Part shown: positions 18,430 through 62,599 of the stretch, piece after piece
How positions within the stretch are numbered: position 1 is the stretch's first letter
Layout: every line of letters starts with the position of its first letter
NCBI GenBank assembly: GCA_028554795.2
Contig: JAPYKE020000033.1
Span: 4,197,501 to 4,261,500 of the forward strand
DNA from: Sinohyriopsis cumingii
Lineage: Eukaryota; Mollusca; Bivalvia; Unionida; Unionidae
DNA length: 64,000 nucleotides
Direction of reading: 5' to 3'
Translations under genes and position numbers: made by a program
The notes under the pieces: generated by a model
What the model saw: the letters and a program-made list of their open reading frames with translations, nothing else
Told to the model about the DNA's origin: nothing
The model's database searches: none

Positions 18430-18602
18430 CAGTAATAATTTTATTTTTCAAATTAGCTAATGTAGAGCACATATTGGATGTCAGATTGGCACTGTTTTCA
18501 TTTAGGACACAGCTGACATCATTAACAGTTTGTTTTGGATTTTTAACGTAGCTTTAACAATTTTTCAGTCATACTGCTGCGATGTTGGGCCTTCCATTTA
18601 AT

Positions 18603-18646
<44 letters not shown>
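18430..18646 (+). repeat. Dispersed repeat unit, SINE tail and (TA)n
   Basis: A unit of the dispersed 'ggatgtcagattggcac' repeat (18430-18530) is followed directly by a fragment of the SINE family A 3' region (about 18535-18590, 'tttttaacgtagctt'), then a (TA)n microsatellite at 18605-18646. Confidence 0.7.
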
Positions 18647-18648
<2 letters not shown>

Positions 18649-19284
18649 CCATTGCAAAAATTGCATACATATTTAAACTATTTAATAATTTTGTCACACA
18701 TCATTATGTGTCTGAATTCAATGGGAAAAATTATCAGCAAAATTAGGTGAAGAAAGACGAAGCACATGTACAGTTCATTACGTTCCAGTGTCAATGAGCG
18801 GTGTCTGTACAAATTTCATACTGCTAACATTTTCTCATGCATTTCCATGTACATTTATCCATTGCAAATTTCCAAAAATTTTACACTTGTACACCTATTC
18901 ATTTGAACGAATACAGCAAGAACAATTAACAATCAACACATGCTTTCAGCATGCATATAACTTTTACTTCAGATTTTGTGCATATCAAAAGAAACATGTG
19001 AAAACTACTATACTAATCATTGCACAAAGTGCAGAGAATGATTTGCGTTTGTGAACTTGCTTTTCCATAATGGTAAAATATTTATATAAAAAAAAGGAAA
19101 TTATAACGAGTTCATAACAAACACTATACCCATGAAAAACCAGAGAACTAAGTGTAGTAGGCCTGCAATGGTCATGAGTCACTTTTATAAAAAAATTAAA
19201 AGTTGAACGCATGTACAATTTTATACACTATTTCATGTACTTTGAACAAAAAATATTATTTTATGTGTGAACGAATATCCAAAA

Positions 19285-19344
19285 TTTTGAGGGCCATGCC
19301 ACGACCGCGTTATATCCGAATTCGCGTTTAGCGGGGTTGCACTG
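19285..19344 (+). mobile_element. Tigger/pogo-like transposon end (partial)
   Basis: The sequence ends 'agcggggttgcactg' followed by TA at 19345-19346. A near-identical end lies at 62827-62893. Read inward the end is CAGTGCAACCCCGCT, resembling pogo/Tigger-type termini, which insert at TA. The matching opposite terminus was not found, so this is a truncated or MITE copy. Confidence 0.6.
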
Positions 19345-19849
19345 TATATTCATTTACCTTTACAACTTCTTTTATTGTCAAAAGAAAATAATTTTTTAAG
19401 CCAATGGCTTTCATTCTAATCCTTTACATTCTGTATTGTATACTTTTGCAATCTCCATCTACATATTTATGAAACAAGTATAAGTCAGTAGGGGAATAAT
19501 ACAACTTGATATTTACCTGTCAATGGAAGACTTAAAATGCAAATGAGATGTGAGACAACAGATTCTAAAGTAAATCCAGGAGATATTCTCATAACTGTCA
19601 CTGATACAACTTTATACTCTATAATTCAACATTCTCAATATTAAAAAACAATGTATACACATACATGCCAATCCCTAAAGTGGAAAAATTGTAATCAAAG
19701 TGGATGAAAAGAGCAGAAAAAGAGTAATCCACAAAGAACATGATAAAATTCAATGAACATATGTATAAAATGATTTATTTACACCTCTGGTCTATTAACA
19801 TCAATTACTGCTTCAAGTTTTCATATGTAGAACTTATAGCTTTAGAAAG

Positions 19850-20925
19850 CAACAGACTGTCATATTACAATTCAAAACACTTTGTACCAGCTGAGACCAT
19901 GAATGTTTTGCACACCAGCAGAGCACTAAGTACTGAATTACTGAACCTGGAACTGAATTCAGTTTTATTTTTGTTAACAATACTGAACAATCTCTCACAA
20001 CCACCATTAGAATGGTAAAGAACCAATATTCCTTTCATAACCTAACAAAGAAGAGGAAAGTTATATTTTCCAGTGATTGGGTCTTTTAGCTGGGAAATAA
20101 GGTGCCATTGCCCATCAACTCTGTCTGCATGAAGTACACTGTCAGGTAGAATGCCAACTTGATACTTCAGGAATTCTCCTTTTAGATGATCCAAAGTAGA
20201 CAAGGGTGGCATTAGAAAGTGATATCTCTTGACAAAGAATCTTGCGCTTTTAAAGTGTCTCATTAACATTATCAACTAAAACATTTAAAAGCACTTCATC
20301 TCCATATGGGAATTTCTCGCAGAACACTTTAAGAGTAGAATGTTCTGTGAATTCTCTTGTTACTGCACCAACAGCAACTTCTTCATTATTTCTCTGGTTT
20401 GCACTGTCATGAAAGTCTATATCAGTTTAAAGCCTGACTGACAATGATTTCTGGTTTAAGAAACCTTATTAGCAAATCTGAAAACTGGTTTGAGAGAATC
20501 TTGTGCATAATATAAATGCATGGTTCTTCTTTCTTAAGACAATATTTGCTGCATCAAACAATGGAATGGCACTCCTCATGAACAAGCAGTGCAGCTTTGT
20601 AACTGGATCATTAAGATTTTTGAAAACCATCTCACACTTTGATTCTTCCTAATACTGAACAGACTAATAATTTCTAATAACAGACTCTGCTTTAGTACTA
20701 CTTTTCTTTGCATTTTTTTCCCTTTTTCTCTCTGTAGACTCGCCTTCAGTTTGAAAGAAAGCTTGTAGTGCCATCCAAAGCTCAAGTAAATGTCTAATAC
20801 ATCTGCCAAAGGATAACCATCTTGTACACACATGCTTTATAACATTATAGTCTTCAAGATCAAACTCATCTTGCAACTAAATTAGAGCTTGTTTCCTTTT
20901 ACTACTTTTCTCCAAATAATAGATG
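19850..20925 (-). pseudogene. hAT transposase relic, C-terminal half (outer element)
   Basis: This is the C-terminal half of a hAT-superfamily cut-and-paste transposase, frameshifted and with stops. Reading from 20,925 down, fragments in order are IYYLEKSSKRK, then DLEDYNVIKHVCTRWLSFGR (the conserved RW region), then KSARFFVKRYHFLMPPL..., and finally HSNGGCERLFSIVNKNKTEF and SALLVCKTF at about 20,014-19,890, the hATC dimerisation domain. The N-terminal half is at 23014-24045 on the same strand. The break falls inside the motif LLVDIY|IYYLEKSSKRK, exactly where another element sits (20926-23013). The family is firm. It is a pseudogene, and no host function is suggested. Confidence 0.85.
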
Positions 20926-21024
20926 AGACCTGTTTACCCATAAATTTGCTTTTCAGTATTTTAGGCAATGTCTGTCAGTATTTTTAGAAGGCAGTCAGTA
21001 TTTTCATTAGGTGTTTCTAACATC

Positions 21025-21826
21025 TTAACACATTAACCCCTGAAGCTTTTTGTCATTTTTGCCTAAAAATCGAGTAGGAAACAATTTTGAAAGCTATTTC
21101 TGAATAGACTCGAAAACACCAAATCCCTGGTCATCTTTCAATAAAATACTGCCCAGTGGTGTTAGAAACATCGATTTTCGTTGGCTATTTGACTCGCGCA
21201 TAACCCCTGAAGCTTTTTGTCATTTTTGCCTAAAAATCGAGTAGGAAACAATTTTGAAAGCTATTTCTGAATAGACTCGAAAACACCAAATCCCTGGTCA
21301 TCTTTCAATAAAATACTGCCCAGTAGTGTTAGAAACATCGATTTTCGTTGGCTATTTGACTCGCGCATGAGCAGAAGGGTAAAAATTGGACTTTTTTCTT
21401 TCTTTTTTTTTTCTTCTTTTTTTTGCATAAACGGAGCCATTTGTTTTGTATGGAGACCACTCTTTATTCCAAATGCCCATCTTATCCTACTTTTTGCAAA
21501 GGCTCATCTGTCTGTTTGCAGTTCATACCGGTTTGCCTTAGACCTGAGACCAAAAAGTCTAAAATCCGGACACAAAATCAGATTCCAACCACAGGCAAAT
21601 TCTGGGTTAAAAAAAGTCGGGTCCAAAATATGAGGTTTTTCTATTTGTATTTTGTAGTGCAACTAGATATTCCAGATTATTTGGTATCACTGTAGAGCTA
21701 CATCTGTCTACCTTTCTATAATACCACCCACTTTAGTGTATCATGCATGACCAAGATGCTACAGAGCTTGGCAGTAGGCTACTACCTCCTGCCCCGTAAA
21801 GTCGTTGCTAGGGGTTAATGTGTTAA
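21025..21826. mobile_element. piggyBac-like MITE with TTAA flanks
   Basis: This 802-bp element is bounded by TTAA at 21025-21028 and 21823-21826, with perfect 13-bp inverted repeats CACATTAACCCCT inside. TTAA target duplication is characteristic of the piggyBac superfamily, which supports but does not prove the assignment. It has no recognisable transposase. A related copy in the opposite orientation lies at 40360-40974. It contains a 167-bp internal tandem duplication. Open frames at 21367-21695 lie inside it and match nothing I know. Confidence 0.8.
21034..21367 (+). repeat. 167-bp tandem duplication inside the MITE
   Basis: Copies at 21034-21200 and 21201-21367 appear identical except for one visible G/A difference (cagtggtgtt versus cagtagtgtt). 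The duplication is therefore much younger than the surrounding relics. Confidence 0.95.
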
Positions 21827-22329
21827 CACAGCACACATCACCTTTGAAACAGCATACCACCACTGACTTAAAGATATTGTTTATATTATAGTGATAAAAA
21901 CCATACAAAATACCTCCACACACCCAAATTCATTTGGTTATTTACCTATGTTACTTCCTCTAGAAAATCTGTTTTCTCAGCTTCACACATATCCATAACA
22001 TTTTAAATAATGCCAATTCTCTACATTATACAATGTTAAGGAAGACTTAATACAAAACATTATGACAGACATTGTTATCCACTCAGAAAATGACTTCATT
22101 TAGATAGGTGAAGGCAATCTTATTGTTCCATAAAATCTAGTATCAGCTTTGTCAACATTTACTAGAACCGGAAATGAGCTTTATATATTATTTTGTATAA
22201 AGTTTGTCAACAATATCAAACTAATCCACTTGGAATCACTGTCTTAATGAAGGCTTAGACTATAGGCACTCTTTATCCTATCCTGCTGGTCGTCTGTCCA
22301 CTCTTTGGTAAAAGAGAGATTAATTGTTT

Positions 22330-22773
22330 CTAAATATCTTGTGCAATTTTGGAATCTGGGAACATATTTTTCATTGCTTCTGTTAACTTGTCGGCTGTAT
22401 TCAAAGACAAATTCATATTTACAATCAACTCACATAGAATCACCTCAGCACGTGTTATTTGCTTTTGAAGTATGTGTTGATCACTGACTTGCTTTCCCTT
22501 CATCATTGACAAAATATTTCTATTTCCCTTTACTAATGATTCTAATTTTGCACGATTTTCCAATTACACGTGCCATGAACAGTCATTCCTTCCAACATGT
22601 GCATTGGAAAAGTCTAAGTTGCAAACAATGCAGAGCACAAAATGTTCTCCTTTAGACGATGGTTTAAGGCATGGACACAGAGTATTATAAGCCGGTAGAA
22701 AATGCTGCTTTCTATATTTAGACTTAATATTTTCATCATCAGTTTTGTGCTGAAACTTTCTTGTCAGCAGCAT
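22330..22773 (-). pseudogene. hAT transposase N-terminal relic (inner element)
   Basis: Two adjoining minus-strand open segments (22773-22564 and 22563-22330) read as the N-terminus of a hAT transposase. The first contains LCIVCNLDFSNAHVGRNDCS, resembling a degenerate BED-type zinc finger with one C-x2-C pair. The second ends LTEAMKNMFPDSKIAQDI, a stretch typical of a bivalve- and fish-common hAT subgroup. A stop separates them and the catalytic part is absent, so the element is non-autonomous. Its relative in the outer element is similar but not identical, so these are cousin families and not a duplication. Confidence 0.7.
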
Positions 22774-23013
22774 TTTCTTTGTTTAAACAACCAGATGTTG
22801 AGAATGTTAAAATCAGTGATGTGGCACAGACTGAGGACGCGGACCAAAGAGACAGTACAATGAAACGATACGCATTAAAAATGGCTTAAAAATTTATTTA
22901 AAAAGTAAATAAATGCAACTTCAAATCATAATTTCAGCTCAATGACCGTATGACCATACAGATTGGCTTTATTCTGTACAAATACTGTAAAATACGGATG
23001 GGTAAACAGGTCT

Positions 23014-24045
23014 GGTAGATGTCAACTAGCAAATGACCAGATTCTATTTCTAATTTATCAGCAACCTTTCTCGCAGCAAGGTACACCAAATCACAGGGAC
23101 AATCCATTATGTACACTGATGGAGACATTTTCAAATATTGGATAAAACTCCTTTATGAATACCATTCATGACTGATGCATTATCAGCTAAAAACTCCATA
23201 CAGTTCTGCCAACATATATCATGTTTCTTCAAAGCATGTTTCTGCAGTGGAAACTGCTGTTAATTCTGGTAATGAAAGAAGAACACTTGTGGCATTTCCC
23301 CTTTCACTGTCAAAGTACCTGACACAAACTGGGTACAACATTTCATCATCATAATAAGTACTCCCATCCATCGCAGTACTAAACAGCCCAATTTTCATGG
23401 TTTGTTTTAAGTGAAGTATCTTCACCTAAACACTAAACAATATTAAATGATTTTGTTATTGCACATGCATATTTTTCTGCAATTTTGGAATCTGGAAACA
23501 TCTGTTTGAACAAAGGACCAATGTGGTCTGCTACAGCTAAGGGCAGTCTGTGTTCTATTAAGAATTCTGTAAATAACATCTCTGCATTTAATAACATTCA
23601 TGTCCACACTTCAGTTTTGCTGTGAAAAAAAGAAGTTAGTAAGACAAGCTAATTCAATGTGCTTCTTTGCTTTCAAGTGTTTTTCCACATCAACTTTACC
23701 ACCATGACCAATATTAAACATACTTTTCACACAGCCTGCAAATGGCATGATGCTGCCCTAGAATGGAACACTGTATTATGTCATTCATGTATTCATCTTT
23801 TGATGATTCAGTATTTTTTTGTTTGTTGCTTAGTTCTTTTCTGATTCATCTGTGAAATTATTTGAACACACACACATAGACTGGAATCCATTTGACGATT
23901 TTTGGACCAAATATTAAACTCCTTTCCACACAGCCTGCAATGGGCATCATTATGCAGCAGAACGCTACATTATGTCATCCATGTATTCATCTTTGGAGGA
24001 TCATTCTGCTTTTTTGTGTCTTTTTCTAATCCATCTGTGAAATTC
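23014..24045 (-). pseudogene. hAT transposase relic, N-terminal half (outer element)
   Basis: This is the N-terminal and early catalytic part of the outer hAT transposase, broken by stops and frameshifts. From high to low coordinates there are two diverged copies of a zinc-finger region (about 24,040-23,880 and 23,790-23,640, with KHLKAKKHIELA). Next comes HRLPLAVADHIGPLFKQMFP at about 23,560-23,480. At 23,425-23,219 comes GLFSTAMDGSTYYDDEMLYP, carrying the aspartate region of the RNase-H-like catalytic fold. Then SVYIMDCPCDLVYLAARK and GHLLVDIY end at the insertion point. The reading resumes at 20,925. The duplicated zinc-finger segment is unusual. Confidence 0.8.
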
Positions 24046-24059
24046 TTTGCAAAACACTT

Positions 24060-24470
24060 TTTCTCTAACAACTAGACTAAATTTTACTTAACCTTTACCA
24101 ACAAATACCAGACTGGTTCTATAACAAATATGAATCAGAACAAAGAATCTCAGAGCAAAGATTCAAAATCAGAAAACCTGTCCGTTTTCTCTTAACTATG
24201 CCAAAGAGCTGCTATAAATAGAATATAATGATAGTGTGAGGAAAGTACATGCTGGTCTATTGTACTCTTGTACAAAAGCGATTAGATATGACCTATAGCA
24301 CACTACAGATTGGTTCTCTAACAAACACGAATCATAACACTGAATCTGATGACAAAGGTTTGAAAGTAGAAACCAGCATGTTTCTTGGAAATAGGACAGC
24401 TGCTAGAAATTGAACATATTAATACTGTTACAAAAGTGCATGCAAGTATATGGACAAGTGTACTCTTATG
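24060..24470 (+). repeat. Two diverged direct repeats of about 200 bp
   Basis: Segments beginning 'cagactggttctataacaaa' (24109) and 'cagattggttctctaacaaa' (24303) align over about 120-200 bp. They adjoin the hAT relic and may be duplicated non-coding sequence of that element. Confidence 0.7.
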
Positions 24471-25329
24471 TTGTAGTTACGAAGATGCCATCTTCTCTAG
24501 AATATGATCTGACAGATTAATGAGATGTTAATAAAAATGAGAAAACAACTTATTGATTTTTTTGGAAGGGGATATATCAAAAAAGCATAATACATACACG
24601 GCCAAGCATAGTGTGTAATTTTGTGAAAAAAAGCATAATGATTATGCCAAAAGCATAATAGTTGGCATGTATGCATACAGCTCATAATGCATCACATACA
24701 TCAGTTGTAACAAGACTTTAAAGAGAGATCCATTATGCAAAATGAAGCATGACAGATAAGGTAACAATTTTCAGTGATCATTTTAACAAACCATGCAAAA
24801 ATATGCCAATATAATTACCTTGTTAAAAATGTGACCGTATCTCATTTCTGAATGATTAACAGCCAAGGCAATTTAAATAATCACAATATTTAGTGAACAC
24901 AAATTTTTGTGGATGGGTGCTACAAACCAAAAATGGAATTTTAAAAAAAACAAACAAGCAAACATATTTCTGCAGAAAAATACATCTTCCCCAATCCATA
25001 GATTTAATGACGTTTTTAGCAAACAACAATAATTTCTAACAACAAATAATAAATTTTATAGTACTAAATGACAATGCTGAAATCATTTTGAACAGCTCTC
25101 ATGGAGTTCATGAACTAAAAAATTGAGGAATACTCATGGTGTTCATGAAAAAATATATTCTGAATAACTCTCATTTGGTTGTTAGAAAAATATCCAGTTA
25201 AACTAAAGGAGTGGTAAGCAATTTGCACACAAGAATCTACTCCCACCTCTCACAATAACCCCACCCTTACCCCACAATGGAAATAAAAAAGAGGCATATT
25301 TCCTGTGAAAAAAGTGGGTCAATAAGATG

Positions 25330-25720
25330 ATGATATACACAAAGTTTCATAGTTGCATTCATAAAATTCTCTCAAACACCCAGCTGCATATCAAGAGGGG
25401 CAATAACTCTAACAAAATTCAAAGGAGCATAAAAATCAGTCAGTATGTGCATCTTTATATGATAAACATAACATGTACCACATTTCACAGCAATCCATAA
25501 AATACTGCAAGACATGTTGGATTCTGTCTTGGATGCCATCCAGCCGCTAGACAAAATGGGCAATAACAAACAAAAATGATCGGAGCAAAGTGATTTCTTA
25601 ATACCAGACATGATTTTGGTATTCCACAAAAACAGCTGAAAATGTAAAAGGAGGGTTTGGGGGTCCTCCCCCAATTTCTCTTCAAAATATGATCATAATA
25701 TATAACAAAATAATCATTTG
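25330..25720 (+). repeat. Mollusc-type dispersed repeat ('gggcaataactc')
   Basis: This stretch contains 'aaacacccagctgcatatca' and 'aggggcaataactctaac', and resembles 32270-32560 ('aacacccaaaaggggtaata') and 26640-26800. These are non-coding dispersed copies. The open frames here are incidental. Confidence 0.65.
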
Positions 25721-25933: not shown

Positions 25934-26476
25934 TCAACTATATACAAATAATCCCATACATTCACTTGTCTTTTTCTCCAATGGACACAACCTGTTGATA
26001 TGCCAGTCGAGCCTTTTTTGCGACACTGGCAAAAATTTATTTAGCCTTCCTATTTGACTGACGTTTTTTGGCTCAATGTGCAATCGTTTCTTTTGCTTCT
26101 CAATGACAGCCTTTTTCTTTTCAAGGTGGTGCTTGCATTGGCAACATGCAGTGCACATATTCTGACAGAGAGATACATCTGTTCTCTCTTGCAAGAAATC
26201 ATCCTTCTTATAGTAATTAACTGCACTTTTTCCAGATGCCTTCTGAGCTTCAATTTTTCTGTATGCAGTTTCTTTTGTAAGTGCCGTTTCAAGCACGATT
26301 ACAGAGAAGCAGAGATCACAAAATGCCAGTCCTCTAGCATCCAGTTTTCTTATAAACTGACCAACTAAATTTCCAATGACTTTTCGCTCCAGCCATTCCC
26401 ATACATTTTCTAAACCTTTATCTAAACTTCTCAAGTCATGGTCTCTCTCAACAACTCGGGACGCCATTTTTTGCAA
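25934..26476 (-). CDS. Unassigned intact 180-codon ORF, possibly zinc-finger transposon-derived
   Basis: This is the longest uninterrupted reading frame in the window, lying in an EXOC6 intron on the same strand. The start MQKMASRVVERDHDLRSLDK is followed by NVWEWLER, GQFIRKLDARGLAFCDLC (residues about 42-59) and a lysine-rich second half containing CQNMCTACCQCKHH (residues about 107-120) and LEKKKAVIEKQKKR. The first part resembles N-terminal zinc-finger regions of hAT-like proteins that are common in bivalves, where '...KLD.PG.A.C.LC...I' precedes a BED-like finger. The expected second half of that finger is not clear. No splice to EXOC6 is suggested. It may be a decayed or domesticated transposon end, or a chance frame. 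I cannot give a function. Confidence 0.4.
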   Translation of the reverse strand: MQKMASRVVERDHDLRSLDKGLENVWEWLERKVIGNLVGQFIRKLDARGLAFCDLCFSVIVLETALTKETAYRKIEAQKASGKSAVNYYKKDDFLQERTDVSLCQNMCTACCQCKHHLEKKKAVIEKQKKRLHIEPKNVSQIGRLNKFLPVSQKRLDWHINRLCPLEKKTSECMGLFVYS

Positions 26477-27107
26477 GCACGCTTCTTCTTTCCTTTGATA
26501 TCAGTTTCCATTACACGAAGATTCATTGGATGAATTTAAACTTTTGACCAATCAGAATACTCTTTACGAGAGTCGTTTGCTAACTACTATATGCAACGAA
26601 TAGGTTACAAGGTTCATTGTGGAATGGGGCCGAACAGACCGTTTTTTTAAAAACCGGTAAAATAGGACTATATCAAGAAAAATCGGATTCAAGTCAGGAG
26701 AAAAGTGGAATTCAAAACAAAGAAAAATCATGTCTGTAATATGAGCATCTTTACCAACTTTCATGGCAATCCAAAAACTGCAGGACACATTCCACTAATG
26801 AGGTTGCAAGACAAAGAAATAAATTCTACTAAAAAATGCTGATATGTCCATAAGCAAATCCTCAGGTTATGACCTTAATATCCGCCAAGTCTCATGACAA
26901 TCCCATCAAAAATCGGGACTGGTTGGGGCAACTAGATTGTGCTGGAGCGAAGATCAATCAGAATCAAGGATTGACCTGTTGTTGATAAAATGCAGAAAAA
27001 CATTTAATGCAAAATTACCAGATTCACAAGGCGTATACTTGCATCAAAAGCCTTCGTTGTTATTATTAAAGTTGGAAAACAATGAAGAATCATAATGACA
27101 AGATTAC

Positions 27108-28777: not shown

Positions 28778-30900
28778 ACAAATGCAAAATAAATTTAATT
28801 GAATCATATACCTTGTACAAATAGATACAATTTTGTTTTTTTTAAAATGTTAGTCAATATACTTGGAGTAAGTCAGTTCTCATGCACTTTATTTAATAAT
28901 TCATTGCTTATCTCAAAGCCCAACAAGTGCAAGACAAATATCTTCACTATGAAGAACTATTTCACAATTCTTCAACTTGCTTACATCTAAAGAAATATTA
29001 AAATTTTATGTCAATAAAAGAGTATGTTCTGATTTGTATTTCTCTGCAATGACTAAAACACTGGAAAGAATAATCAAGAATGTGGTGTCAATATTTGAAG
29101 CCCCTGTATACAAAAAAATAAATTTCTGAGCTCAGAAAAAGTGACAAAACATTGACATAAAACTTGCTGATAGTAGTATTTCATGAATAACAAGGCAGGG
29201 AAATCAATCTTCAGCAGTAAATAACAATAAGCATGTATCATGGTACATAATGTATCATTCTCCTTATACAGCAATATGTATTGCATGGAATGCTAACTGT
29301 ATGATACATATTGTGGTATGCAAAATATCACAACCCCAGTATATGTATCGTATCATTACCATGCAAGCCAAACACACCCTAATTGGCACATTAGTCAGTG
29401 CAACAAATTAATATCCATTATCTGTGAATTTGTAATGGAACACAAAAATAAAATTAAAAAATGTTCCAACCATAACAATATCTGATTCTGACTTCTGTCA
29501 TGGAGACTAACAGCTTTTGTCATGGGGACTAATGGCTTTGTCATGGGGAATAAAGGCTTCTTTATCTCTAAGTTGGAGAATCTATCTAATAAATAGTCCT
29601 TAGTAGATTGGATAGGAGAATCTAAGGAAGTTGATGAAATCGATAAAATTTCTTATAGAGGAGTTGGCTGGTTTTGCTATGCTGGTTTCAATGGCACTTT
29701 CAACACAATCTTTACTCTATGTCACCAAGGAGATAAGCGATTCCTGGCATTCCACCAATAAACACCACTATCGGACTCATTCAAGTAGGTGAATGATGTG
29801 ATTTATATCCTTTTAGACCTTTGTCTCAAAATCCTTCTAGCCTGCTAGTTTTGTTTTAAAACTAAATATTGATAACCAATAATATGTTTGAGAAATTCTA
29901 TGATGATGAAATAATAAACACTTATAAGTCAAGATGAAGGATAAAACCTATGTAAAACAACTGTTTTCACTTACTGGAACTGGGCATCAATCCCACTGTA
30001 GCCCGTATTTAGAAATTATCAATTGAGTTATTTCTGCAATCTGTTATTCACTTTTTCAAATTAGTTTAATTCAACTTATTGGCAAAATAAAGTTTTGCAA
30101 TCATAAACCTGCAATACAAACACAAATCTGTTGATCATGACGGAATCTTTACAGTTCTTAGCCATATGTTCTATCCATAGCATTAGACACATGTTTGAAA
30201 TTTGGTAAGCTTATTCGGATCCTTGCATCTAGTCTCAGTCACCACAGAGACAGACTTGAAGAGCAGGATGAATTAAGTTTCTCATCCTAATACAGAGGGG
30301 TGAAACAATACACCTCTTCAGAACACTGATACTATTCATTAATTCGCAGCCTATGACATGATATATTATCAACCTTTTATCAGCATGATGTCCCACCCAG
30401 TCACATTATCCTGACACCAGGCCAACCAGTCCTAACACAGTCCTCTTATTACTGTGTGCCATGCCAGGTAGCGGTTAGTACCATTTTTACAAGTCTTTGG
30501 TATGATTCAGCCAGGCTCAAACCTGCAACTTCCTGCATCAGAGACAGATGCTCAAATGACTAGGCCACCAAAGCAGTCGAACACAATGAAGTTTGGAGTG
30601 TTACATCTTATTTTAGTGTGCATTACTGTCCTGTAATAAAGTACTAGTTGTATCTGTAACTATTTCAACAACTTTGTGGTCAATCACAAAAATTGAAGAA
30701 GAAAAATACAACACAGGAAAATGTTTTAGCTGTAAAATTTATACCTTAAATTGCAGTCTGTTTTCACATGGGATTTTCTGGAGAAGCCACAGTGAAACTG
30801 CAGCTGTAGACAGCTTTACAAATAATGAAAATTAGAACTGATTTTTTTCTCTCTTAATTTTCAGTAATTATTGCTTGTGCAAATTTGGGATTTACAGTAC
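28778..30900 (-). other. EXOC6 intron with a truncated SINE
   Basis: A minus-oriented SINE family A copy is at 30381-30580. A short triplicated segment ('tcatggggactaa' words) is at about 29500-29555. Nothing coding was recognised. Confidence 0.6.
30381..30580 (-). mobile_element. tRNA-derived SINE, family A (truncated copy)
   Basis: This aligns with the copies at 49229-49552 and 59409-59726 (shared 'agcatgatgtcccacccag' and 'attatcctgacaccaggcc'). The tRNA-like head is at the high-coordinate end ('gactaggccacc'), and the distal tail seen in the other copies is missing. Confidence 0.8.
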
Positions 30901-37694: not shown

Positions 37695-39020
37695 ATGGGC
37701 AATATACCTATTAGACCCTATACAAATAGACTTTAGAAATAGGAATGGACATGCCTATTAGACCCTATACAAATGGACTTTAGAAATAGGAATGGACATA
37801 CCTATTATACCCTATACAAATGGACTTTAGAAATAGGAATGGACATACCTATTATACCCTATACAAATGGACTTCAGAAGTAGGAACAGACATACCTATT
37901 AGACCATATATAAATGGACTTTAGAAGTAGGAATGGACATACCTATTATACCATATACAAATGGACTTTAGAAGTAGGAATGGACATGCCTATTAGACCC
38001 TATACAAATGGACTTTAGTAGTAGGAATGAACATGCCTATCAGACCCTATACAAATGGACTTTAGTAGTAGGAATGGACATGCCTATTAGACCCTATACA
38101 AATTGACTTTAGTAGTAGGAATGGACATGCCTATTAGACCCTATACAAATGGACTTTAGTAGTAGGAATGGACATGCCTATTAGACCCTATACAAATGGA
38201 CTTTAGTAGTAGGAATGGACATACCTATTAGACCCTATACAAATGGACTTTAGAAGTAGGAATGGACATACCTATTATACCATATGCAAATGGACTTAAG
38301 AAGTAGGAATGGACATACCTATTATACCATATACAAATGGACTTTAGAAGTAGGAATGGACATACCTACTATACCATATACAAATGGACTTTAGTAGTAG
38401 GATTGAACATAGCTACTAGACCCTATACAAATGGACTTTAGAAGTAGGAATGGACATACCTATTATACCATATACAAATGGACTTAAGAAGTAGGAATGG
38501 ACATACCTATTATACCATATACAAATGGACTTAAGAAGTGGGAATGGACATACCTATTATACCATATACAAATGGACTTTAGAAGTAGGAATGGACATAC
38601 CTACCATACCATATACAAATGGACTTTAGTAGTAGGAATGGACATACCTATTAGACCATATACATATGGACTTTAGAAGTAGGAATGGACATACCTATTA
38701 GACCATATCCAAATGGACTTTAGAAATAGGAATGGACATGCCTATTAGACCATATACAAATGGACTTTGGTAGTAGGAATGGCCATACCTATTAGACCAT
38801 ATACAAATGGACTTTAGAAATAGGAATGGACATGCCTATTAGACCATATACAAATGGACTTTAGTAGTAGGAATGGACATGCCTATTAGACCATATACAA
38901 ATGGACTTTAGAAATAGGAATGGATATGCCTATTATAACATATACAAATGGACTTTAGTAGTAGGACTGGACATGCCTATTAGACCATATACAAATAGTC
39001 TTTAGTAGTAGTAGGAATGG
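37695..39020 (+). repeat. Large minisatellite, 47-bp unit, about 28 copies
   Basis: This is the largest tandem array in the window. The unit is 'acctattataccatatacaa' plus 'atggactttagaagtaggaa' plus 'tggacat', 47 bp (for example 37707 to 37754). Variants at fixed positions (gaccc/accat, gaagt/gtagt/gaaat) appear in blocks, which suggests expansion of sub-groups. 47 is not a multiple of three, so it is not coding. Confidence 0.97.
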
Positions 39021-40017
39021 ACATGTGCAAAGCAGAATAGAACATCTTTAGAAAGTTAAAACTTTATATGTTAATCAATTCACTAATTTTAATCCAAATC
39101 TGATTAGTAATACAGGTCACAGTAGCAATACAGTTAATAAGATGCAAGATCACCTCATTAATATGCAAGGATACAAAACAATCTCTAGCAAGCCAACTTT
39201 TCAGAAAGACATGAGAACCTTTATTTTTTTATCCATTTAAGTATTTTCCATAATGTAGGAACGTATCAGTTTCCTGCAGTTATCTCGCAAGCAACAAACA
39301 TAAATAGTAGATGATAAAAATCACTCGTAGTGCTAATTTTTTGGTATAACAATTGCACTTTTAATGAAATCCAGATGGCTAATCATTAAAGATGATTGCC
39401 TTTTATTTCCAAACAAAACAGGCAACCAAATCTCACAAGTTAAAATATTAATAATTATCGCCAATTAATAGCTAGCAACATGCATCAAAAGAATCTACTG
39501 ACAAGCTGACAATTGTGAGTTGGCACATTCAGTTCATTTCAAAATCTCCATGGCTATGTCAACTAAGTGCATGTTAGTATTATCTTGCATACTAAATTAA
39601 GTGAGTTTTGACCAATCAAAACAGGGTTTTATTTAGAAATGACAAGTTTCACATACTAGAATGAAACAAACTAATGAGCAAAACTTGTGTGAGTATGCAG
39701 AAAACAAAGAAAATCAAACCTTTTGTTCTTCATTTGTTCTTGAAGTTTTCCATACATTTCAAGGACTGTTAAAGAGAAAATTAGAAAGTGTTAAAAACAC
39801 ATCAAATACATTGCTTGTAAAATGCAAGGACATTTTACAGGAAAATAACACACCAGACAACTATCAGCATGTAACCACTTCCAAATGTGAATACAGTGGA
39901 TGCAGATTGTCCCCAATAGGTTTTTTAAAAAAAACTGATGCTCATCTGAGTGAGAAGAAGTTACAAGAATTAAGGACCATTTCTTCATTTCAAAAGCTGA
40001 GTGTTTAAACCATTTCT

Positions 40018-40359: not shown

Positions 40360-40974
40360 GTAACTAATTACCCCAAGCACCTCATTCGTTCATCAGAAGG
40401 TAATAACCTACTTCTGAGCTTTGTAGCATCAAAGTTATTTAAGATACACCAAAGTGGGTGGTATTACAAAAAAGTAGACATTTAGCTGTACAATGATACC
40501 AAATAATCTGGACTTTCTACTCACATTACAAAATACAGAGGGAAAACATATTTTTTTAGACCTGATTTTTTTACACCAAGAATTTGACCATTGTCAGAAT
40601 CGGATTTATGATTTTAGACTTTTTGGCCTCGGGTCTAAGGAAGACCAGTCTGAACTGCACACAGATAGGTGAACCTTATCAACAAGTAGGATAAGTTGGG
40701 GATCTGGAGTTAAAAGTGGCTAGGACATGCAAATGACAGGGTCTAAATTAGCAAAAAAATAAAAATGAAACAAGAATTCAACTTTTACCCTTCTGCACAT
40801 GTGCAAGCAAAATAGCCAATGAAAAACATCATTTCTAACACAACTAGGCACCAGGCTAAACAAAAATCTCTTGGAAGCAGATTTATTTGGATGTGTTCAG
40901 AAGTAGTCCCCAAAATGATTCCTGCTCCCATGTAAGGTGAAAATAACAAAATTCTGCAGGGGTTAATGAGTTAA
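40360..40974. mobile_element. Second copy of the TTAA MITE (inverted, diverged)
   Basis: The right end, AGGGGTTAATGAG plus TTAA (40958-40974), matches the terminus at 21025-21041 with one change. The left end at about 40360 (gtaactaattacccca) is more decayed. Inner text such as 'gataccaaataatctgga' and 'aagtgggtggtatta' matches the first copy in reverse orientation. It is about 615 bp and lacks the 167-bp duplication. Confidence 0.75.
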
Positions 40975-45664: not shown

Positions 45665-45835
45665 AGGAATATTTCTCTAATTGTGAGGAAAAGCCAACAT
45701 CTTCTCCAACAGAAAAATTGATTTAAGAGAAGGCTTTAACAAGATTTTCAAGATGGCTGCTATGGTGGCCATATTGAATGTCAGATTGGCACCATTTTAA
45801 TTTAGGACCCACTAGATGTTTCCACAAGAAAACAA
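45665..45835 (+). repeat. Dispersed 'aagatggc' repeat unit
   Basis: One well-preserved unit contains 'gattttcaagatggctgcta' and 'tgtcagattggcaccatttt'. A TG/TA microsatellite follows at 45839-45881. Confidence 0.85.
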
Positions 45836-45849
45836 TGTGTGTATGTATA

Positions 45850-45880
<31 letters not shown>

Positions 45881-45935
45881 CTCTCTCTGGGAGTCGCAAT
45901 AACATTTCTGAGATAATGGTAACCATGCTATATTA

Positions 45936-47370
45936 CACCTCTCCCTCGATAACTTGCACACAACGGGGTCCACAAACATAAACTGCACTATAAACGAGGT
46001 GCGAGTTACCGAGGGACCTCCAAAAATTGAAGAAGAAAAAAAAAATCACTTTGACATCAAGAAAACTGGGGGGAGGGGGGATTAGGGAACTGGGCTGTTT
46101 ATTGTCTGAATCCTCATTTTACAATCACGTCGATAATAATTTTTAATAACGCGCTTTTTCTAATTAAGTTGTTTGTTATTCTGTTTAAATAACATTTTCA
46201 AAATGTCCAATATATGAAACATCGTTCCAACTGGTTTCAACAACCATCACGTGTACACGAAAAAATCTGTGTATTACATCACTGCTTTTTGTTTTCTTGA
46301 TGAGTCTGGTTCCCATATTGGTGTTTAATATTATCCTGCCAAATTGGGAGTCCACAGAACAGGGAACTGACTAACTGTTGATACACCACCAAACAAGATT
46401 CCTTTTTTTTCAAACACACGCCACATATTTCGTGAGACAACCGTCTAAGTCGAAACTCAATTTCTGTATTGTTCAATTAGTACAATATTGATGTCATGAT
46501 TTCATTGGAAGTTCTCTAAGTGCCAGTTCAAGAATTCTCTGAAACTCGCTTGCCCACAATGGCCCGTATCTGTGAAATCAAGCTCTTTATTTAATGTTAC
46601 ATATACAATAACATTTATAAGTGTTCGACTGATCAAATGAAGTTGAGTTCACCCGACATACGACCATGGCTGCTAGATTTTAGGTTTGTGGGATTTTCAT
46701 GCCTTTTAACTTTCCTTTCAATCCACCTCCTTTATTTGATTCAGAAGACATACTTAACGTGGTAATACAAAGGAGGACAGCTTTTAATTCAGTGTTACAG
46801 TACAACAAATACTTCCGGAAGTCAGTTATCAAAACACGGTCGGCACTTAATTAGGTTCTCAGAGAAACGTTCGCGGACATAGCTGTTACGGTAGATTGAC
46901 ACATTTTACATTTAATTACAAGAGGACACATTGCACTGATGATGACTACACTTAAAAGGAACTAAAATATAGAACCAGAACACAAATTTCAATTGATAAA
47001 AGAATTATTTATTTTGTATTTATTTATTAAAGTACTGCATCAACTTGGCGTAAGTGACATTTTCATTAATCAAAATTTCCTTACATATCATCAATTGCAG
47101 AATGTTGTTTGGAAAGAAAATGTAAAACAACTGTATGACGTATTTTTAAATTTGATATTTCAAAGTGTTGATTAAAATTTCCAGGTCCTATCTACCGTTT
47201 TCGACAAAAAATGAGCAATACATCAAAGTTTCCATTACCAATTTTGATCATGATATTCTTCAAGTTCAACAAATAGGTATTAATTTTTAGGGCATTTTCT
47301 GGTTTAAAGAATGGGGGCCACGCCTGACCCTGCATTATAAGCGGGTTTGCGAGTTATCAAGGGAGTGGTG
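45936..47370. mobile_element. Tigger-like DNA transposon, non-autonomous (copy 1)
   Basis: The termini are inverted repeats: CACCTCTCCCTCGATAACTT at the left and, read inward on the other strand, CACCACTCCCTTGATAACTC at the right. TA dinucleotides flank both sides (45934-45935 and 47371-47372). TA duplication plus a 'CCCTCGATAACTCGC'-type end fits the Tc1/mariner-pogo (Tigger) group. The 1,435-bp body shows no clear transposase and is about the same length as the copy at 50154-51649, with which it aligns throughout. Confidence 0.8.
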
Positions 47371-47977: not shown

Positions 47978-49228
47978 CTATTTTTTTTTAAAAAAAAAGA
48001 CAAAATGTATTTATTTGAATTTTAGAGAGAAGTGGCTTCTCCTTTTGGACAGAACAGGGAGAAGTGAGAGCTAAACGGAGAGGTGGGAGCAAAGCAAAAC
48101 ACTATATATATATATATATGAATTATGCCCTCTATTTCCCAGTATGCATATTTGCATTTAACAGTGGTATTAAGCAATACTTTATTTTCAAGTAGAAAAT
48201 TTTCTGAGTTCTATTACTACTATCTATATTATAAACACATTTGTTGCATGTTTAAAAACTATCGTATTCATATGCAGTGTATTTTGGCAAATTTGACTGA
48301 AAAAAAGATCAATATGAATGTCATTACAAGTTTGTACAAATGTCTAATCAACTCCTTAATCAAGAATTTTTCTTTTCACTTTCTAAAATTTCACTATAAA
48401 ATGGAAGTTGACAAGATTTCTAAAATTGTTTTAAACAACCCGTCTCCTGTACATGAGAGTAAATGCACACGTCTTTAAGATCATAATGCTCATCCTAATT
48501 TCTTTGTTGCAGATAAAACTTTACCATAACTGTTCATAGACAACACAATGAAGAACTAAAGTCAGTATATGAATGAACTAAACCCTTTTTTTTAAAACCA
48601 AATCAACACAGTTTTCTTAACATAACCACTAACTTTATAGTTTCGTTCAACAGTCCACTGATTGGATTGCAAATATTAGGTTTTATTATCTGTCTACATA
48701 CTATGTAATGTTAGGCATTGGTTAAATAGTATTTGATTTTCTGGGTTTTTTCTTCTTCGCATTTTCACAAAAATGAGTGAACTCAGAATACAACCTTGAC
48801 CTTACAGCATTGTCCTGTATGTTTCTGACCTATATAATAGCATTTAAAGCTAAATCTTCAATAACGTAATATTCAGACTCTGCTTTCTATGCATTGTATA
48901 TTTGCCCAATGGTTTATAAAAAGAGACAATCAAATAAAGTGCACTTCTCTGACACACCGACGTCTGCCTTTATTATCCCATAACAGGTTCACTTACAGCT
49001 CCAAACTGATTTTTGTGAAGAAAATAATGTACATGTTGCAGTTAAAATATTCATGTTACTGATTCTATTCATAAAACACAAATTGCTATTTACATAATTT
49101 TAAGTTTCAAAACACAAATTTGTATGTTTCTATGATCAAAGGATAACTTGCAGAAATTATGCAGTAATAGTTGCTAACTTACTTGAGAAAGGGTTAATGG
49201 TCAATCAGATATCAAAACACATGTATAA

Positions 49229-49552
49229 GTGTGTGTGCGTGTGTTTTAGATTTTTAATGTAGCTTAAAAAATTTTCAGTCATGTCGCTATGATGTCGGCA
49301 GTGTGACAGTTTATAGTGATGTCCAGCACTGAGCATCATGCCGTAGACATGTAGCATGATGTCCCACCCAGTCACATTATCCTGACACCAGGCCGACCAG
49401 TCCTAACACTAACCTCTTAATGCTGAGCACCATGCAAGGCAGCTGTTAGTACCATTTTTGTAAATTTTTAGTATGACTCAGCTGGGGTTCAAACCCGCGA
49501 CCTCCCACATCCAAAGTGGATGCTCTAACCATTAGGCCACCCAAGCAGTCGA
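49229..49552 (-). mobile_element. tRNA-derived SINE, family A
   Basis: On the minus strand the head has a pol III A box-like TGGCCTAATGG (complement of 49529-49539) and a B box-like GGGTTTGAACC (complement of 49486-49496), followed by a body of about 230 bp and a (CA)n tail (49231-49244). A closely similar copy is at 59409-59726 and fragments are at 30381-30580 and 18535-18590. These are not functional tRNA genes. Confidence 0.88.
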
Positions 49553-50059
49553 AACACATGTATGTGAATGTGCAAAAGTTTGTAGGCACAAATGATACCA
49601 ACAACAAGTATTTGATGGTTTGAAGCCTACATTTTACAGTGAGCTACAATATAACACTGGAACAAACCTGGACAAGGCGAGTGAGCATCTAAAAAAGGAT
49701 GGTCATTCAATGTTTGTGTAAAAAATCATAGGGAGAAGTCATTTTTGATTTCCTAACAGAAGATGGCAAATTTTACATTTTTTAGGAGACTTAGTCACCC
49801 ATTTCACCTGCTAGTATGACCCCTGCTAACATGTGATGGACACAGTACACAGTACAGACATATGGATAGACAGACAGACAAGGTAACACTATATGCTCCT
49901 AATACTGTCTCTATTAAATAAATGAAATAAAGATGGTCATTGATGATTGTTGTACTCATAAATTCTGATATCACTATAAAACAGCAAGAACTTTATGTTA
50001 GTTACAACAGATATCCCTTCCCATGTGGTCCTCTACAAATCTTGGTCTCTGGTTTCCAC

Positions 50060-50062
<3 letters not shown>

Positions 50063-50144
<82 letters not shown>

Positions 50145-50153
50145 ATATATATA
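50063..50153. repeat. (TA)n microsatellite at the transposon border
   Basis: A pure TA run of about 70 bp grades into imperfect TA/ATA and abuts the left terminus of the element at 50154. Confidence 0.97.
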
Positions 50154-51646
50154 CACCTCTCCCTTGATAACTAGCGCACAATAGGGGTTTACAAACACAG
50201 ACCACACTTTAAACAAGGGCATGAGTTACTGAGGGACCTAAAAAAAAAAAAAACATTGTACTTAGACATCAAGAAAACAGCGGGGGGACAGGAATAGGGA
50301 AATGGGCTGTTTAATTACTGAATCCTCATTTTATAACGTCGATAATTATTGTTAATAATGTGCTTTTTCTATTGAAGTTGTTCGCTATTCTGTATAAATG
50401 GCATTTATTTTCAAAATGTCCAACATGTAAAAGATCATTCCAATTGGTTTCAGAAACACACAGCTAAGGGTGTACATGAAAACAAAACATCTGTGTAATA
50501 CATTACTTCTTTTGTTTTGTTGACTAATCTGGTTCTCGGAATGGTTCTTAATAGTATAGTGCCAGTCAGGAGTCAAAGTAGCAGGTAACTAGACTAACTG
50601 TTGATATAGTACCAAACAAGATTTCCTTGAAACTCAATTTTTGTATTGTTCATTTAGTAAAATACTATTGTCGCCATTTCATTGGAAGTAAGAGTGAAAC
50701 TTCATATCATCCTTGAGGATATCTCTAAGTGCCAGTTAGAAATTCTCTGAAATGCGCTTGCCCACAATGGTCCGTATCTGTGAAACCAAACTCTTTATAT
50801 TACGAAGTATTTGTTTTCCTTGATTGCCTTGCTATCTTTGATCACAGTTATGAATGAGTCAGTTATTTTAGGTCAGTTTAATTATCTTACATACACAATA
50901 ACATTTATAACAGTGTTTGATTTGAAAACTGAAGTGAGTTCGCCTGACACAACTGGGGTAGCAAGATTTTATAATGTAGAATTTGCATGCCTTTTAACCT
51001 TTCTTTTATTTCACTTGCTTTATTTAATTCAAAAGACATAATTAACATGGTAATGCAAGAGAGGCCAGCTTTTAATTCAGTGCAACAAACCAACAAATAC
51101 TCCATCAAGTCATCAAAACACGGTCAGCACTTAATTAGGTTCTGTTCTCAGAGAAATGCTTGCAGACAGCTGTTATGGTAGAATGATACATTTTAGGTTT
51201 AAATACACATTGCATTCATGATGATTACACTTAAGAGGAACTAAAAGATAAAATTAAAACACGAATTTCACCTAACAAAAATTATTTGATTGGCATCTAA
51301 ATATTAATGTACTGCATACACTAGGCATGACATTTTCATTTATCAAATTTCTACTAAGAATGTCATTTGGAAAGAAAATGTAACCAATTATATGATTTCG
51401 TATTAAACAGTGATAATTTCTAATTTTTTTTAATAATTTCCAGATCTTATCTACCGTTTTGGACCATAAAATAAGCGATATATCAATGTTTCAGTTACAA
51501 ATTTTGATCATGACTTTCTTCAAGTTCAGGAAATAGTGATAAATGATTTTAGTATTTTATGGTTTACAAAAATGAGATCCATGCTGCCTCACCCTGCATT
51601 TTAAGCAGGTTCGTTGAGTTAACAGGCTTGAGTTATCGAGGGAATG

Positions 51647-58516: not shown

Positions 58517-59408
58517 AGCTTCTGCTTGTGACCAGTTTTTAACCAGATCACATACGTAAATATGTACCTTAAATCAAAGGGAAACATAACAAAGATGTAT
58601 ATGACTAACAGGTTTTCATCCCCAAAAAGTAATTCATTAAACATTTGAGTGAAAATTTCTTCACAGATTACAAATTGTGATACAAAGAAGTATCCATCAT
58701 TTTTAGCATTATTAATGTGGTATCATCCCACAACCTATTTTGGCAGTGTCATAAACTTTCAGAAGATACATCTCACAACCACAGCATGATACTGCATATG
58801 GATCAACACAGAAAAAATTGTCAAAAATCCAATCATTATCAGCTGTGTAATGATAAATAGCATGAAAAAACTCAATTTACCAATTCTCTTTTCCAAACAG
58901 TAGGTCGTAAAATTCCTTACAAACCATACAGACGATGCACTTCCGCAATAATGTCTTCAAGTCTGCTACTCAACATGTGATACTGTAGCAACATGACTCA
59001 CAGCAAATAACTGCATCAATAACAATGTGTAGAATAATGTAAAATGTTATGAAGTTTTATTTGTATCTATCGTTACTGATGTTCATCTGTGTTTCTTTGT
59101 TATTATGATTTGAAGAAAGTTTCAAGAAACACATAATTTTATATTACATAACTAAACCTGCATCTCCTGCATTTTTGCTTATTTAAATCAACGTACTGAA
59201 ATTTTCTATTGGTAAGTAATTTGACTTTAATAATAAATTTTCAATCACCCTTAAGGAGAATCTTGATATGCTTTATTTTGACCAATTTAACTTATAATTT
59301 CTTTAATACTCATCAGAATGATAACAGATTGAAAACAAAACAATAACTTTGTCTTCTGACTCTAACTATTTGCACTTCTGAAGAAATAACTTATGAAGGA
59401 TGCAATGC

Positions 59409-59726
59409 ATGTGTGTGTGTGTGTGTGATTTGGAATTTTAACGTAGCCTGAACAATTTTTAAGTCATATCGCTATGATGTCTGCAGTGTGATAGTTTATA
59501 GTGATGTCTAGCACTGGGGCATCATAAAGCAGACATGTAGCATGATGTCCCACCCAGGCACATTATCCTGACACCAGGCCAACCAGTCCTAACACTAACC
59601 TCTTACTGCTGAGCGCCAAGCGAGGCAGCCGTTAGTACCATTTTTGTAAGACTCGGCCTGGGAGTTGAACCCATGACCTCCCGCATTTGCAGTGGATGCT
59701 CTAACCACTAGGCCACCCGAGCAGTA
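59409..59726 (-). mobile_element. tRNA-derived SINE, family A
   Basis: This is a full-length copy with a tRNA-like head at the high-coordinate end ('ctctaaccactaggccaccc'), the shared body ('agcatgatgtcccacccagg') and a (CA)n tail (plus-strand TG run at 59409-59427). It is closely similar to 49229-49552. Confidence 0.88.
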
Positions 59727-60108: not shown

Positions 60109-61800
60109 TTACTTTTGTCTATGTCGCATTTCACAAAATTTTCTGATGCTGGGCTTTGGATCATATTCCTCCACACTAGGTCCCTCTTCTTTGACATGCA
60201 TCATTTGTGTTAAGGTCTCATGTTTTATTCTAGACCTTCCCTTTGCCTTGATTTTGTTCTGCACACTGAAGCCTCTCTCACATGCCACAGATGTCACTAG
60301 TGACACCAACACAATTACAGCTAGGACTACAAGGTCTGAAAATACATCTCTGTACTATTGCAGTAGAGTTGTACAGGCTTCTGTCAGTGTGCAGTTCAAT
60401 GATTTTATGACTACCTTCACTTGGTAGAAATCAGCCTGTGCTCTTTCAACATCAATAACTCCACCCCCACCACCACAAATATTGATCAATTCCTGTGGTT
60501 CATTTTCACCATGATCATCAAGACTGTTAGCATTTCTTGGGACTTTGGATGGGCTCAGCACAGTGTTAAGAAGCTGAAGGTTTTTCATGGATTGTTCATA
60601 AAACCTCACATCTAAGTTTTCTACAAGTTTGTCCAGATAGTTGTTTGCATTAATCTGAAACTGCAATGTGAGTTTATCTCCATCTGTTACCTTCACCCCA
60701 TGATATAAAGACTTTCATTTTGTGAGATCATCATACATTTTGGCTAATTCAATCGAGTAGATTCCACCATAATATTCACAGTCTCAATGTCCACATTGCC
60801 TTGTTGAAACACTTGAGATAGCTTTCCTACTACTCCAAGAATGTCTTTAAAGAATCCTGAAACCAACACAAATGTCACACACTTTACGCAGAAAATACCC
60901 TTTGCCTCAGAAACACCCTTTGCAACATCATGTTCAAGTGTAGCATACACAGCTGAGTAACAGTTGACTATTGCTCTCACTGCTGCTTCTACAGAAAGCT
61001 GTTGGAAACTTGCTGGTTCCTTCAGTTACATATTTCATGTTTTCACTGTCCACAATGTCCACCACAAATGTATTTAGCAATTCTGCAGTACGATACAATG
61101 ACCTGAGAGCCATTCTCAGGTCATTGTATCGTACTGCAGAATTGCTGAAGTACCTATACACCATCTTCAAAGTGTGCTGATATTCGTTGAACAGTGTAAT
61201 GTCCCTACATGCTTGGCCTGCAGCAAGTGCAAGCTTATGAGCAACACAGTGTATCTGCATTAGATGCTTGAAGTGATACTGTTTCAGTATAGCACACACA
61301 CCATTGAGTCTACCAGTAATGACAGCTGCACCATCACTAGCTAATGTCATTAGCTTGCTGAGAGGGATTTTCTTTCTCTCAAATAACTATTTCAGAAACA
61401 ACTGTTGCAGCTTTTCCATCTATAACACTGATACAATCCACAAAATGAATCACTGACGTATTATCACTACTCAGACACTTCACATAAACATTCAGCTTTT
61501 TATGGATAGTCACATTTGTACTTTCATCAATAATAAGTTCCAAATATTAGTCAGAATTAGTTATCTTGGTGTCTACTACTTCTTTTAAAGTAGAGTTTAT
61601 GGCCTCCAACATGTCCATCTTTATTTCTTCACTTGTGTACAATTTCTTGTGCTCTTGAAGGTCTGGACATTTGTTCTTGATTTGGAGAGCGATTACTTTG
61701 TTGTACTGACTCAGTGGCTGACCCTCTTTCACAATGTAATACAAGGTGTTGAATTGTGTCTCTTTCGTGCTGTCACAATCACTGTCTAACTCCTGTAGCT
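60109..61800 (-). pseudogene. hAT transposase relic, ZNF862-like group
   Basis: This is a nearly collinear transposase missing its N-terminal zinc finger. From 61,800 down it reads KLYTSEEIKMDMLEAINSTL, then LELIIDESTNVTIHKKLNVY, MTLASDGAAVITGRLNGV and LMQIHCVAHKLALAAGQA (catalytic-fold region with the C..H pair). At the end is SLVTSVACERGFSVQNKIK (hATC dimerisation domain) at about 60,312-60,250. Stops or frameshifts occur near 61,550, 61,360, 60,930 and 60,350, so it is inactive. Proteins such as ZNF862 and KIAA1586 carry this type of domain. A perfect 33-bp palindrome lies inside the 138-codon open piece at 60934-61350. Confidence 0.85.
61076..61146. repeat. Perfect 33-bp palindrome with 5-nt loop
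   Basis: Arms at 61076-61108 and 61114-61146 are exact reverse complements (each contains CTGCAGTACGATACAATGAC or its complement), separated by gccat. It lies within an open hAT reading frame. Both strands therefore encode the peptide SNSAVRYNDLR. Confidence 0.97.
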
Positions 61801-62599
61801 TCTGATATTCAAAAAGCTAAATTCATAAATGTTAAATTACAATTTTATTATGTTTATTTTTGAAACAAATGTTTAACTACACCATATCAATTGTTTTGTA
61901 TACATTAAAAGATAATGTCAGTAAAAGTGCACTGTTATATCATAATCAGCTTATGCTGATATCTGGCCTTGGTACTGAATGCTGTAATATAATCAAAATA
62001 ACCATGCAACTGATTAGCTAGAATGGACCACCTCTGAAGGCAGAAACGTGAAATGACTACAGTCGACCAGACGACGGCAATTTAAAAAAATACCAGGTGG
62101 CAGAAAAAATAGTTTTGCTGCAACTTCAAAGAAAACTGATTACCTCTGAAGCACTGATAGATACTAAGCAAATTTTAAAAAAATCTGTCTCAATGTTCTA
62201 CAACTATCTGATGTTGCCGAAGCAATATCAAATAGGTATTTGTTTGGTCCTTCAAAGGAAGCCTTTAGTGGATATCTCACAACATACAGTGCTCATGCTA
62301 GATGTCAAGATAAGTGGATTATGATATAACAATACACTGTTTAGATGGTTTTTCAATATGGACAAAGAATTTATTTATGTAACAACAGCTGAATTTCAGC
62401 ACATTTTATATCCAGTTTGCAGCTTCCTTTCATGAGGCCTCTGAATTTCTCCACTCCACAAACCAGTGGTTGTATATATAAGTTTAAACAGCCAAAATGT
62501 TGGCAATAAAATGTTGCCAGATGGTATATTCCCATCCACACACACAGATAAAAAAATCAAAGTCTGTGACATTGGCGAAGCCATACACAATCCCAGAAT

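Follow-up and report, generated by a model that had tools for sequence, protein, structure and literature searches.

Most hAT elements start with CA, and introns occur in many hAT genes. MITEs of the piggyBac type are defined by their TTAA flanks. In one published survey, hAT and piggyBac elements are recorded in all the mollusc genomes analysed there (PMC10294476).

The window, i.e. the whole 64-kb stretch of DNA analysed here, was described in a preliminary description as containing a three-level transposon nest. Ends, flanks and nesting bear this out: an outer hAT-type relic, an inner element that interrupts it and, inside the latter, a TTAA MITE that carries a duplication are all present. 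Very probably, a decayed outer hAT-type gene was hit by a second hAT-like element, the lineage of which took a TTAA MITE, and this MITE duplicated 167 bp.

The outer hAT-type relic

Pieces of one transposase-like protein are found in all three minus-strand frames from about 24,071 to 19,868. The N-terminal and middle part (23,014 to 24,071, minus strand) consists of stop-to-stop pieces in three frames and ends in GHLLVDIY. The C-terminal part (19,868 to 20,925, minus strand) runs as open pieces from YLEKSSKRK to a region resembling the hAT dimerisation domain. At its far C end it matches Pfam Dimer_Tnp_hAT (PF05699) weakly: the E-value is 0.0065, and the score of 16.7 bits falls short of the curated cut-off (21.4). 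A stitched 190-aa middle piece and two N-terminal pieces gave no Pfam match. The motifs occur in an order that would fit a hAT transposase: MFPDSKIA on the N-terminal side, DNASVMNG centrally and CERLFS close to the end.

No convincing pair of outer terminal inverted repeats with an 8-bp duplication was found between 18,500–19,870 and 24,040–25,600: the search returned four candidates (12 bp with at most two mismatches, flanks with at most two mismatches), none of which starts with CA. The outer ends, if once present, may have decayed, and we therefore name this sequence a hAT-type relic rather than an element with known ends. An old tandem duplication (23,706–23,871 and 23,905–24,057, 75.6% identical) spans the N-terminal part of the relic. 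The duplicated stretch looks zinc-finger-like by eye, so that two such regions may once have existed.

The inner element, its flanks and its content

The inner hAT-like element occupies positions 20,926 to 23,013 (2088 bp, or 1290 bp after subtraction of the MITE and one TTAA) and interrupts the outer relic. Its inverted ends (20,926–20,941 and 22,998–23,013) are identical at 16/16 bp; they are thus perfect, as previously described, and longer than the 14 bp given at that time. On the plus strand the element is adjoined by AATAGATG on the left (20,918–20,925) and GGTAGATG on the right (23,014–23,021). The 8-bp flanking duplication proposed earlier is recovered in these two octamers, which are equal at six of eight positions and differ by A/G at the other two; agreement at six or more positions has a probability of about 0.007 from base composition. 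Of 500 dinucleotide shuffles of the stretch 19,850–24,060, 46 contained a perfect inverted repeat of 14 bp whose arms were separated by 100 bp or more. In a second set, a 12-bp inverted repeat with 8-bp flanks differing at no more than two positions arose in 7 of 500; the real stretch contains one inverted pair with such flanks, at 16 bp. An alternative boundary of the inner element, with 15-bp C/G ends, was rejected: few of its flank positions match by eye, and its frame differs.

Within the inner element, the minus strand carries a remnant of a related transposase (22,333 to 22,782, one internal stop); it covers the N-terminal half and reads as far as MFPDSKIAQDI. The preliminary description saw here a cousin family inserted into its relative. 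MFPDSKIA is indeed common to the inner and outer readings, and the kinship is a broad one, since 24 of 91 residues (26%) are identical between the inner relic and the stitched outer relic (E 4e-9, a value from a single comparison of stitched readings). In Pfam, the inner relic showed no hAT or zinc-finger match, the only hit being Stork_head (E 0.069), under its cut-off. The C-terminal half of the transposase was not seen when the inner element was read by eye in six frames, and the element is therefore probably non-autonomous. Further copies of the inner or of the outer hAT element were not seen in the 64-kb window.

The TTAA-flanked MITE, its duplication and a second copy

As reported before, the inner element hosts a MITE with TTAA on both sides (21,029 to 21,822; TTAA at 21,025–21,028 and 21,823–21,826). 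Beyond TTAA its inverted ends are perfect over 13 bp, or over 17 bp when TTAA is counted, with CACATTAACCCCT at both ends. Two plus-strand units of 167 bp lie in tandem in this MITE (21,034–21,200 and 21,201–21,367) and differ at 1 of 167 bases, in agreement with the nearly identical duplication noted in the preliminary description.

Self-comparison of the window located a second MITE copy on the opposite strand (71.9% over 594 columns). This copy (40,364 to 40,970, minus strand, flanks GTAA and TTAA) has TTAACTCATTAACCCCTG at one terminus and GTAACTAATTACCCC at the opposite one, and contains one unit only. When one unit of copy 1 was left out, global alignment gave 437 identical bases in 601 ungapped columns (72.7%; 40,370–40,970 aligned). 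This independent copy supports the ends assigned to the MITE, and its single unit indicates that the 167-bp duplication is the derived state.

The protein reading across the interruption

With the inner segment removed, the join reads RSFIQYLKMSPSVYIMDCPCDLVYLAARKVADKLEIESGHLLVDIY followed by YLEKSSKRKQALI and a stop, GHLLVDIY and YLEKSSKRKQALI sharing one frame. Excision of the segment with the left flank copy kept gives VADKLEIESGHLLVDIY followed by YLEKSSKRKQALI and the stop; with the right flank copy kept, DIY is followed by HLEKSSKRKQALI and the stop, and a single frame is thus read with either flank copy. Past the stop, the joined frame continues as LQDEFDLEDYNVIKHVCTRWLSFG for 70 codons. 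Another minus-strand frame is open for 86 codons (20,836–20,579) over nearly the same stretch beside the join, and in the short stretch tested at the join the other frames contain one to three stops versus one in the chosen frame. Because of this rival frame and of the similar stop counts, openness alone does not single out the frame of the join; the prior for frame agreement across it is one in three. It is from hAT motifs, not from openness, that we infer a coding role for the joined frame.

A continuous protein across the break had been proposed: one frame does pass through the join, and its putative coding status depends on hAT motifs. The suggested HMMER search with the joined protein did not recover Dimer_Tnp_hAT, as nothing of the hAT type was matched by the joined 130-aa piece, for which Pfam returned DUF4568 only, with an E-value of 0.089 and a score well short of the cut-off; the weak match is confined to the far C end of the relic.

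Another degenerate transposase-like relic, which seems to belong to a different hAT-like group, lies on the minus strand at 60,112–61,816; a stitched piece of it matches DUF4371 with an E-value of 0.0049, below the curated cut-off. Aligned to this relic at 60–61.8 kb, the joined reading scored 36, the left part alone 36 and the right part 28, and a reading of the left part extended into the inner element scored 43, above the joined reading. Shuffling of both parts (n = 2000) gave a mean of 27.8 and scores of at least 36 in 125 of 2000 cases, and all alignment scores of the join test lay within the shuffle range. The join is therefore not supported by the 60–61.8 kb relic as an independent test. 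Given the rival open frame, the null Pfam result and this alignment test, it is chiefly the ends and flanks that argue for an insertion, and the protein reading agrees with them.

Origin of the nest and order of events

In the sequence of events that we favour, a eukaryotic (animal-like) gene for a hAT-type transposase would have been struck by another hAT-like element, itself probably non-autonomous, the cut-and-paste insertion of which would have left an 8-bp target duplication within the outer coding region. The lineage of this inner element would also have acquired a TTAA-targeting MITE of the piggyBac type, and the MITE copy within the element would then have duplicated 167 bp in tandem. 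That hAT and piggyBac-type transposases acted here by cut-and-paste is what we infer from flank lengths and ends. An insertion is supported by the perfect 16-bp ends, which coincide with the break in the outer reading, by the 6/8 match of flanks, by the rarity in shuffles of inverted repeats, even of 12 bp, that have such flanks, and by the single frame read across the join whichever flank copy is kept. The hAT assignment is supported by the weak match of the outer C end to Dimer_Tnp_hAT and by the relatedness of the inner relic to the outer one, and the MITE part by the second copy with its terminus TTAACTCATTAACCCCTG and its one unit. This explanation is weakened by the lack of convincing outer ends, by the AGACC start of the inner element and by Pfam matches that are absent or below cut-off, as well as by the join, which does no better against the 60–61.8 kb relic, has a frame prior of one in three and faces a rival frame.

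Segment 20,926–23,013 might instead have belonged to the outer element from the beginning, for instance as an intron, its inverted ends having formed by chance. Introns occur in many hAT genes, and such an origin would fit the lack of a hAT match for the joined piece in Pfam and the failure of the join in the alignment test; it is nevertheless very unlikely, as the break is marked by perfect 16-bp inverted ends and matching 8-bp flanks, and the segment itself contains a second transposase-like relic. We also give hardly any credence to a tendency of the inner hAT-like element to insert into members of its own kin (self-family insertion preference), or to movement of the whole nest as a unit.

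The preliminary description had ordered the events as outer element, inner element, MITE and duplication. The outer relic would be older than the inner insertion, as follows from the interruption of its reading by the inner element, and the lineage of the inner element would predate the MITE nested in it. The duplication is, to judge from the single unit of copy 2 and the difference of 1/167 between units, a late event within the MITE. Nesting alone does not tell whether the MITE arrived before or after the landing of the inner element, and the two MITE copies, at 72.7% identity, are anciently related; it is accordingly possible, if somewhat doubtful, that the MITE, perhaps with its duplication, was already in the inner element before this element entered the outer transposase. 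Against this, differences are fewer between the units (1/167) than between the inner flanks (2/8), with a Fisher P of 0.005. The comparison, which depends on 8 flank bases and takes no account of gene conversion, suggests that the duplication, at least, postdates the inner insertion. There is hence modest support for a duplication younger than the insertion, and gene conversion could mimic a young duplication.

Other features of the window and database searches

A minisatellite with a 47-bp unit in 28 copies occupies 37,704–39,024. Self-comparison also revealed two dispersed repeats, each roughly 1.5 kb long and in the same orientation (45,834–47,359 and 50,062–51,624, 69–75% identical) and a repeat in three copies (30,382–30,585, 49,221–49,558 and 59,405–59,725, 81–87% identity). 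The longest listed open frame outside the tandem array at 34.3–35.0 kb is on the minus strand at 25,934–26,500 (188 aa), and had no Pfam match above a cut-off.

Protein-based searches for relatives returned 12 and 2 pattern-matching stretches in IMG/VR and 128 in GTDB contigs, none of which was confirmed, and pattern-based searches of IMG/VR returned 0 and 0. Little was expected from these collections, because they are viral or prokaryotic. Among PDB sequences, one query had a single match to an unrelated protein (E 0.16) and the second had none. Rfam, searched over the whole window at gathering scores, gave no matches.

Comparison with known systems

The inner element resembles members of the hAT superfamily in its 8-bp target duplication (6/8 match) and short terminal inverted ends (16/16 bp), and the outer relic in its weak C-end match to the hAT dimerisation domain. 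Unlike most members of that superfamily, which start with CA, the inner element has ends that begin with AGACC; the inner element also has the N-terminal half of a transposase only, and both inner and outer elements are broken. The MITE resembles those of the piggyBac type in the TTAA flanks of copy 1 (GTAA/TTAA in copy 2), in its perfect inverted ends and in occurring more than once in the window, and it differs from them in the 167-bp tandem duplication held by copy 1. The nest is a clear case in which part of the order of nested insertions can be read from sequence alone, and three repeat families of this genome gain seed sequences from it. The nest is made of ordinary kinds of transposons, of a sort that is ordinary in animal-like genomes, and it leaves the general view of how transposons work unchanged.
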